DNA of 64,000 bases. Origin: Clostridia bacterium (GTDB taxonomy: Bacteria; Bacillota; Clostridia; Oscillospirales; Acutalibacteraceae). The stretch lies in NCBI GenBank assembly GCA_017430535.1, contig JAFRMR010000027.1, forward strand, positions 1-64,000. The letters run 5' to 3'. Shown here one piece after another: positions 5,516-29,923 of the stretch. Position 1 is the first letter of the stretch. Every line of letters starts with the position of its first letter. Below the pieces are notes generated by a model. It saw only the letters and a list, made by a program, of their open reading frames with translations, searched no databases and was not told the DNA's origin. The position numbers and the translations under genes are program-made.

Positions 5516-5524
5516 CAATGATAT

Positions 5525-5594
5525 CCGCTCTGTGAGCGGGTGATATCCCTTCGGGATGATATCTGCTGCGCAGATGATATCCGCCTTACGGCGG
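5525..5594. repeat. Array of four small hairpins, spacer type TGAT(AT)
   Basis: Four consecutive perfect mini-palindromes: CCGCTC-TGT-GAGCGG (5525-5539), ATCCC-TTC-GGGAT (5545-5557), ATCTGC-TGC-GCAGAT (5561-5575) and CCGCC-TTAC-GGCGG (5581-5594). They are linked by short GTGAT/GAT spacers. Each stem has a different sequence but similar size. The array lies between the lacZ terminator and the RAYT gene, resembling a REP/BIME-type array. No ORF is present. Confidence 0.7.
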
Positions 5595-25983: not shown

Positions 25984-26287
25984 GGCGGGCGAAGGGCGGA
26001 TGCTCATAAAACAGTAATGCCTCAAAAAGCGATCTTTGCGCATCTTGTGCAGGCTTTCCTCCTCGGAATACAGCCAAGTATTCCTCGTCGTCAAAACCTG
26101 CAAACATGCGCAAATCTCATCTTTTTGAGGTGCAAAGCAGTTTTCTCGTGAAAAATAAGACGCAGAACAAGGAAGATTTGCGAAGCATACTATGTGTATG
26201 GTGAACAAATCTGACGATGTGCTGCGGTTTTAGTTTTACGTGAAAACCAATACTGATTTACGAACATCCGCCCAATGCCCGCCTTTT
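25984..26287 (+). terminator. Intrinsic terminator split by a 280-bp element (copy 1)
   Basis: Arms GGCGGGC (25984-25990) and GCCCGCC (26277-26283) followed by TTTT. The structured repeat at 25994-26273 sits in the loop, bounded by GAA and AAT. Because the repeat itself folds, the arms could still pair. Confidence 0.55.
25994..26273. repeat. 280-bp structured dispersed repeat, copy 1
   Basis: Ends are 23-bp imperfect inverted repeats beginning GGGCGGATG and ending CATCCGCCC. Inside, nested complementary arms: CCTCAAAAAG (26020) with CTTTTTGAGG (26121), TTGCGCAT with ATGCGCAA, TGCAGG with CCTGCA, GGAATAC (26065) with GTATTCC (26078). A second domain has AGATTTG (26174) with CAAATCT (26206) and CATAC with GTATG. 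Copy 2 (29627-29906) has the same length with about 11 substitutions by eye and no indels. Not coding: the antisense ORF here is stopped in copy 2. Confidence 0.85.
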
Positions 26288-29613: not shown

Positions 29614-29923
29614 AAAACCCGGGTAAGGGCGGATGCTCATAAAACAGTAATACCTCAAAAAGCAATCTTTGCGCATCTTGTGCAGGCATTCCTCCTCGGA
29701 ATACAGCTAAGTATTCCTCGTCGTCAAAACCTGCAAATATGCACAAATCTCATCTTTTTGAGGTGCAAAGCAGTTTTCTCGTGAAAAATAAGCCGCAGAA
29801 CAAGGAAGATTTGCGAAACATACTTTGTGTATGGTGAACAAATCTGACGATGTGCTGCGGTTTTAGTTTTCCGCGAAAACCAATACTGATTTACGAACAT
29901 CCGCCCAATGCTCCCGGGTTTTT
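29614..29923 (+). terminator. Intrinsic terminator of htrA split by a 280-bp element (copy 2)
   Basis: Perfect arms AAAACCCGGG (29614-29623) and CCCGGGTTTTT (29913-29923) enclose the repeat at 29627-29906. The outer stem differs in sequence from that of copy 1, so it belongs to the host site rather than the element. Confidence 0.65.
29627..29906. repeat. 280-bp structured dispersed repeat, copy 2
   Basis: Same orientation and exact length as copy 1. Junctions are the same: AA before GGGCGG and AATGC after CCGCCC. Substitutions avoid most of the predicted stems, with a few exceptions (for instance ATGCAC in one arm). Confidence 0.85.

Follow-up and report, generated by a model that had tools for sequence, protein, structure and literature searches.

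A probable MITE-like DNA element of about 278 bp in the loops of terminator-like hairpins of Clostridia

Copies of a gene-free DNA element are found at many unrelated sites in Clostridia, most of them where the two halves of a terminator-like hairpin meet, at its dyad centre; a duplicated AA or TT from the hairpin loop borders many copies. The element is short, carries no transposase gene, has terminal inverted repeats and is flanked by a target duplication, and thus has the structure by which a MITE is defined. The reading we favour, with a probability of roughly 0.7, is that of a non-autonomous MITE-like DNA transposable element of about 278 bp, conserved as a DNA shape and moved in trans by a putative shape-recognising enzyme. 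Its placement among the DNA transposable elements follows from the constraint on both strands in combination with the orientation of the copies and the target duplication. No description of such an element was found in the literature searched, a search outside which most subscription journals fall.

Results

Two copies in the window

The window, i.e. the entire 64,000-nt stretch of DNA analysed, contains two copies of the element on the same strand (Table 1). A first-pass annotation had described them as 280-bp copies in one orientation with about 11 substitutions and no indels, and the alignment agrees: the lengths are equal, and 11 differences were counted (96.1% identity across 284 aligned bases). 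The enclosing terminator-like stems, GGCGGGC/GCCCGCC plus TTTT for copy 1 and AAAACCCGGG/CCCGGGTTTTT for copy 2, are unrelated in sequence, as had also been noted, and a T-run follows each of the two hairpins. The ends described as 23-bp inverted repeats are indeed inverted, with pairing that is imperfect over 23–26 bp. The deep internal pairing is borne out by the RNA fold of 25984-26287, at -131.2 kcal/mol (z = -10.05) and equalled by 0 of 100 shuffles; the opposite strand of the same interval folds at -145.1 (z = -12.6). The terminator stem is retained in the predicted fold of copy 1. Elsewhere in the window, Gut-1 RNA (RF01706) lies at 5516-5585 and 5S rRNA at 340-456.

Table 1. Positions in the window of the two element copies, their arms and the enclosing host sequence
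Feature	Copy	Positions	Strand	Remark
Host terminator stem, 5' half GGCGGGC	1	25984-25990	+	
Left target duplication AA	1	25992-25993	+	duplication model derived at another site (L004/L155)
Element, 280 bp	1	25994-26273	+	
P1 terminal stem, 5' arm	1	25994-26019	+	
P2 long hairpin, base CCTNAAAA...TTTTNAGG	1	26020-26130	+	
P3 mini-hairpin TGC-AAA-GCA	1	26131-26139	+	
P4 long hairpin, base GTTTT...AAAAC	1	26140-26247	+	
P1 terminal stem, 3' arm	1	26248-26273	+	
Right target duplication AA	1	26274-26275	+	
Host terminator, 3' half GCCCGCC (26277-26283) + TTTT	1	26277-26287	+	
Host terminator, 5' half AAAACCCGGG	2	29614-29623	+	
Left AA duplication	2	29625-29626	+	
Element, 280 bp	2	29627-29906	+	
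Arms P1, P2, P3, P4	2	P1 29627-29652/29881-29906, P2 29653-29763, P3 29764-29772, P4 29773-29880	+	offset from copy 1
Right AA duplication	2	29907-29908	+	
Host terminator, 3' half CCCGGGTTTTT	2	29913-29923	+	

Copies in the genome and among Clostridia

The genome of origin (2.41 Mb, 27 contigs) gave 15 matches, of which 11 are full-length and 4 are halves lying at the ends of contigs. When complementary flanks are read by eye these reduce to 12 insertions: nine are complete with both flanks and three are split over contig ends. The halves, split at 151/152, pair up by their flanks and are therefore read as assembly breaks. Each of the 12 insertions occupies a different hairpin (nine by score, the three split ones by eye), and the nine copies with both flanks on one contig all reach a cross-element stem score of at least 19. 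In the assembly of this genome, labelled G000, contigs C5, C10, C11 and C22 end 141-143 bp inside a copy and contigs C19 and C25 at a copy's end; as contigs end inside or at copies, the repeat probably fragments these assemblies.

BLAST matched 15 of 60 genomes, the genome of origin included, all within the 37 of the same genus, and 0 of the 23 genomes from other families. A 22-letter junction motif, TTTTNAGGTGCAAAGCAGTTTT, matched 57 stretches with titles naming Clostridia, Clostridiales, Oscillospiraceae or Ruminococcaceae, many of them from the gut of goat, sheep, deer, buffalo or horse; no match was found in viral contigs searched with the 22-letter pattern, nor in the phage and plasmid records searched. 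Most of the named records are MAGs. A covariance model, built from 22 sequences each less than about 90% identical to the others, extended the range. At E ≤ 0.001 it was positive in 87 of the 200 family genomes and in 79 of the 391 class genomes, tallies that include look-alike palindromes without clear terminators (the L301 group, L314, L316 and L318). At E ≤ 1e-35, counted from the hit lists, 27 of the 200 sampled family genomes (22 genera) and 15 of the 391 class genomes (8 families, the own family included) were positive; the scored candidates per genome numbered 9 in the family search and 4 in the class search, and absences are therefore not firm. In one genome that is 99% complete in 3 contigs (G160), 15 copies are present, each place counted once.

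Insertion site

Two sets of copies were used for the analysis of insertion sites. The stem-scored set comprises 73 of 131 anchor hits (44 were dropped for lack of a clear stem or for short flanks, and 14 as duplicates), and 140 distinct copies were kept from 168 spans after removal of 26 duplicates and 2 spans without a stem. The ends of the element were set by extending the terminal pairing outward; the pairing ends of its own accord where AA or TT is directly repeated. The flanking dinucleotides of the 140 copies are AA/AA in 52, TT/TT in 28 and TG/TG in 1, i.e. identical in 81 and non-identical in 59, while the combinations AA/TT or TT/AA occur in 0 of the 140 (Fisher p = 3e-22). Filtering by the core motif (n = 118) leaves 45 AA/AA, 22 TT/TT and no mixed pair. 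Because the third flanking base agrees in only 21 of the 81, the duplication is 2 bp long. Two copies at different sites of one genome, L276 and L278, are identical over 276 bp, yet the former is flanked by AA and the latter by TT; consequently, the duplicated letters derive from the target.

A site without the element, which the first-pass annotation had suggested looking for, is found in a relative (L155, GCCGCTCACTAATTGTGGGCGG), where the site of copy L004 has a single AA and an intact hairpin: L155 reads TCACTAATTGTG, and the filled site reads TCACTAA, the 280 bp of the element, and AATTGTG. Judging from the sequence, L155 may be a paralogous counterpart rather than a strictly orthologous empty site, since its site sequence is repeated within the genus. 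The repeated unit in the L004/L155 surroundings, about 75 bp ending in a GCCGCTCAC..GTGGGCGG hairpin (query 990-1065), recurs in several genomes of the genus. In the response regulator-kinase gap, which is the window's first site, 7 of 11 loci from other species carry a different hairpin and no element (by eye).

Scoring the stem that the two flanks form across the element gave values of at least 18 in 83 of the 140 copies, against 3.8% of mispaired flanks, and of at least 21 in 71 of 140, against 1.1%; the remaining 57 copies score below 18. The true partner flank is the strict best in 60 of 140, where about 1 would be expected. Thus, the outcome named in the first-pass annotation as speaking against its proposal, namely that other copies lack inverted-repeat flanks, does not apply to most of them. 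Among the loci from other families in the class search, 7 of 11 reach 18, and L320, L321, L326 and L327 score lower. Both the stem and the duplication are present in 56 copies; of these, 29 have a reconstructed loop of 4 or 5 nt, 50 a T-run on the right and 46 an A-run on the left. With a stem and T-run around the element, and one clear site without it, the host sites would fit intrinsic terminators. Four copies (L041, L044, L061, L111) adjoin a complete hairpin rather than lying inside one.

Gene context was read from gene calls made by rough ORF scoring, which assigned 81 of the 140 copies and left 59 unassigned or far from a gene. The assigned copies lie between convergent genes in 40 cases, between tandem genes in the same direction as transcription in 22 and in the opposite direction in 16, and between divergent genes in 3. 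The copies sit at gene 3' ends, with no clear preference of orientation relative to transcription, which is about random.

Fold and covariation

The length of the element is near 278 bp (5th–95th percentile 261-281; 122 of 140 copies at 270-285; range 191-328), and it holds while identity between lineages drops to about 55%. Only 2 of 140 copies overlap with a rough ORF call. In the consensus fold four arms, i.e. P1 (a stem of about 25 bp that closes the ends), the long hairpins P2 and P4, and the 3-bp mini-hairpin P3 (TGC-NNN-GCA), join with no unpaired base at the junction. In the covariance check, of a kind proposed in the first-pass annotation, compensatory double changes were seen in 42 of 58 consensus pairs across 22 sequences. 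In 50 sequences of less than 85% identity, P1 contains 1059 Watson-Crick cells, 25 GU, 22 AC and 42 others. The junction letters GCCT / AGGTGC / GCAGTTTT / AAAACC vary little across 50 sequences, and most of the near-invariant letters lie at this internal junction, not at the ends. The terminal letters differ between lineages (GGGCGG, CGGGAG, CGCCAC, ACGGAA), and the terminal stems are alike within a species.

Constraint on the two strands

A true RNA should tolerate G-U pairs on one strand only, and the two strands were compared on this basis. In the RNase P control (28 relatives) the GU:AC ratio was 91:17 for the strand of the RNA itself and 34:63 for the opposite strand, with consensus energies of -117.9 and -91.7. 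For 50 elements the ratios were 85:59 on the plus and 95:51 on the minus strand (-58.1 and -60.3), and for 22 elements 42:24 and 35:24 (-47.3 and -42.0). Thus, in contrast to RNase P, the two strands of the element are under about the same pairing constraint, and the structure therefore appears to matter as DNA. The alignment fitted to the covariance model, a GU-permitting RNA model, has GU 25 vs AC 22 in P1 and leans to RNA pairing in P4 (GU 56 vs AC 17). A single-sequence fold test without GU pairs gave GT 81 vs AC 74 for the elements, in a test whose RNase P control failed (GT 18, AC 30). Against Rfam, the element in the window had no match at gathering score, and a search of 8 loci at E ≤ 5 gave overlaps with elements in three cases only, all of them weak (E from 0.11 to 1.4) and short of the gathering score. 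An RNA element was judged unlikely from the both-strand comparison with the RNase P control.

Alternative explanations

Two explanations would place the function of the element in RNA. One is an RNA-level mobile element, a bacterial SINE or group II-like retroelement, which attacks terminator hairpins in transcripts or in DNA; the structured RNA-like fold and the excess of GU over AC in P4 of the fitted alignment are in its favour, and group IIC introns offer a precedent in that they integrate at DNA stem-loops (PMC10190682). However, we consider it very improbable, given that both strands are constrained about equally, that tandem copies are split 22 vs 16 in orientation and that Rfam yields only the weak overlaps given above. 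Moreover, the duplication of 2 bp lies inside a loop, whereas in the group IIC target a short spacer separates the insertion site from a stem-loop on its 5' side (PMC10190682). Still more remote is a regulatory RNA or attenuator that acts in cis and has been selected into terminators for its function. It would account for the location at gene 3' ends, and hairpins are also present in other species at some of the sites, the response regulator-kinase gap among them; against it, copies occur in both orientations, a counterpart without the element exists, recent identical copies occupy different sites, and the neighbouring genes vary in the cases read. The first-pass annotation had spoken of a mobile element or RNA that targets terminator loops or has been selected into them. 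Its mobile element is upheld by the unrelated sites, the 2-bp duplication, the empty counterpart and the near-identical copies, its RNA is disfavoured by the about equal constraint on the two strands and the about random orientation, and selection into the loops is unlikely in view of the precise insertion position.

An ordinary MITE, derived by deletion from a conventional DDE insertion sequence, with ends read by sequence, a preference for palindromic targets and a passive internal fold, would explain the inverted ends, the 2-bp duplication, the multiple copies and the lack of genes. Entry of insertion sequences into palindromes has precedent in ISPsy8, which inserts into a REP hairpin at its axis of symmetry and duplicates three positions (PMC1525189), and the similarity of terminal stems within a species would allow for co-evolved, sequence-specific transposases. 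We nevertheless regard this as unlikely, since compensatory change preserves the internal hairpins as well as the ends, and the near-invariant letters are concentrated at the junction. Nor does the search for a partner favour it: one end pattern, searched in the genome of origin with up to 1 mismatch, gave 24 matches, each of them an end of a known copy, and no further element with this end type was found there. The IS630/Tc1 DDE_3 transposase was found in 0 of 18 element-rich genomes and the IS110 Transposase_20 in 1 of 18; IS30 HTH_38 was not found at E ≤ 0.001 in three element-bearing genomes (G000, G010, G012), and a rough end-repeat scan of 8 loci for an IS30-type partner gave nothing resembling GGGC..GCCC. 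The Y1 transposase was positive in at least 11 of the 18, and among the other 7, 4 are listed as negative. IS30, IS630, IS110 and Y1 are accordingly rejected as required partners, being missing from some, nearly all or all of the element-bearing genomes searched. A serine recombinase with a fixed 2-bp core is likewise unlikely, as the sequence-identical L276 and L278 carry different dinucleotides. A further alternative concerns the target only and is compatible with a transposable element: any DNA palindrome may serve, terminators being merely the commonest strong intergenic palindromes. We see this as evenly balanced. L041, L044 and L111, beside complete hairpins, and L006, in a palindrome of the element's own end sequence, speak for it; the frequent T-runs and A-runs around the 56 copies would speak against it but do not discriminate, as local terminators often look bidirectional.

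Discussion

For the MITE-like DNA element moved in trans, the following mechanism is proposed. A trans-acting putative enzyme would recognise the extruded cruciform or the folded single strand of the element, as the covariation suggests, and would cut at the base of the terminal stem, at a near-constant distance of about 25 bp from the junction. The ends would then be joined, across a 2-nt stagger, to the unpaired loop strand of the hairpin that serves as target. P1 would extend or stack on the terminator stem, with terminator half-stems that could still pair around the insert; because of this arrangement, terminator loops may be tolerated harbours for the element. Insertion may even be close to harmless, because the terminator stem is still present in the transcript predicted for copy 1. 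We further put forward, tentatively and with more doubt than confidence, a class of transposition in which both partners are read by shape, i.e. a four-way cruciform with a 25-bp ruler arm and a hairpin loop of any sequence, acted on by a putative enzyme with a 2-nt stagger, in a family across the class Clostridia.

Bacterial MITEs are likewise short, gene-free, multi-copy and intergenic, with inverted ends and a target duplication. The present element differs from them in its four-way-junction fold, which is kept by compensatory change between lineages and matched in 8 families, in ends that are not conserved in sequence between lineages, in its position in terminator loops, and in that no parent insertion sequence was found in the searches given above. 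REP/REPIN sequences are non-autonomous hairpin DNA moved in trans by RAYT (Y1) transposases, as the element would be moved by its putative enzyme. REPs are much shorter than the element, and target duplications are not known for them; Y1 is found in at least 11 of the 18 element-rich genomes, and 4 of the other 7 are listed as negative. Insertion sequences that target REPs (ISPsy8, ISPpu9/10) similarly enter hairpin-forming extragenic palindromes, ISPsy8 at the symmetry axis (PMC1525189), but these encode a transposase and insert in REP sequences, whereas the targets of the element share no visible common sequence.

Group IIC introns also choose stem-loops as targets and recognise a structured DNA stem-loop (PMC10190682). 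They insert beside the stem-loop by means of a ribozyme and a maturase, whereas the element sits in the loop, with a 2-bp duplication and no strand preference; the one-way orientation and RNA-strand constraint of such introns are not seen here (tandem 22:16, strands about equal). Integron attC sites resemble the element in being folded DNA with structure kept more than sequence, and their recombination uses the bottom strand (PMC2727003) and the tyrosine recombinase IntI (PMC11641012). The structure of the element, in contrast to attC, shows no strand preference and is itself the mobile unit.

If the reading as a DNA transposable element is true, a widespread mobile element has been missed by annotation, its sequence drifting while the DNA fold is kept, and terminator loops would be a new target choice by which a parasite inserts with little damage. 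The element would allow the formation of cruciforms in living cells to be tested in a natural system, and would perhaps provide a tool for inserting DNA into hairpins of any sequence. Should both partners be read by shape, this would be a shape-coded family of mobile elements across the class Clostridia.

Variant and related palindromes

Six copies are shortened to 191-256 bp (L024, L025, L078, L104, L152, L073); in the first five, by eye, P2 is cut back and the terminal stem and junction are retained. In L006 (G000:C27:199087-199366) the end sequence of the element itself (ACATCCGCCC..GGGCGGATGT) forms the host terminator. At L026/L095, a decayed second copy, mainly the terminal stem, lies just to the right of the element within another terminator-like stem (by eye). 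A second palindromic family of about 273-277 bp, with ends TAAGCAAACACGAATAATCC and a similar fold, was observed in genome G259 (L301, L302, L310-L313) at different sites without clear terminators. L314, L316 and L318 share the arrangement in four arms and resemble the element at the junction (GGTGCTTCGCAGTTTT or GGTTCTGCGAAGTTTT), but their ends differ and a clear terminator is lacking. They suggest that the element belongs to a wider superfamily whose members differ in target choice.
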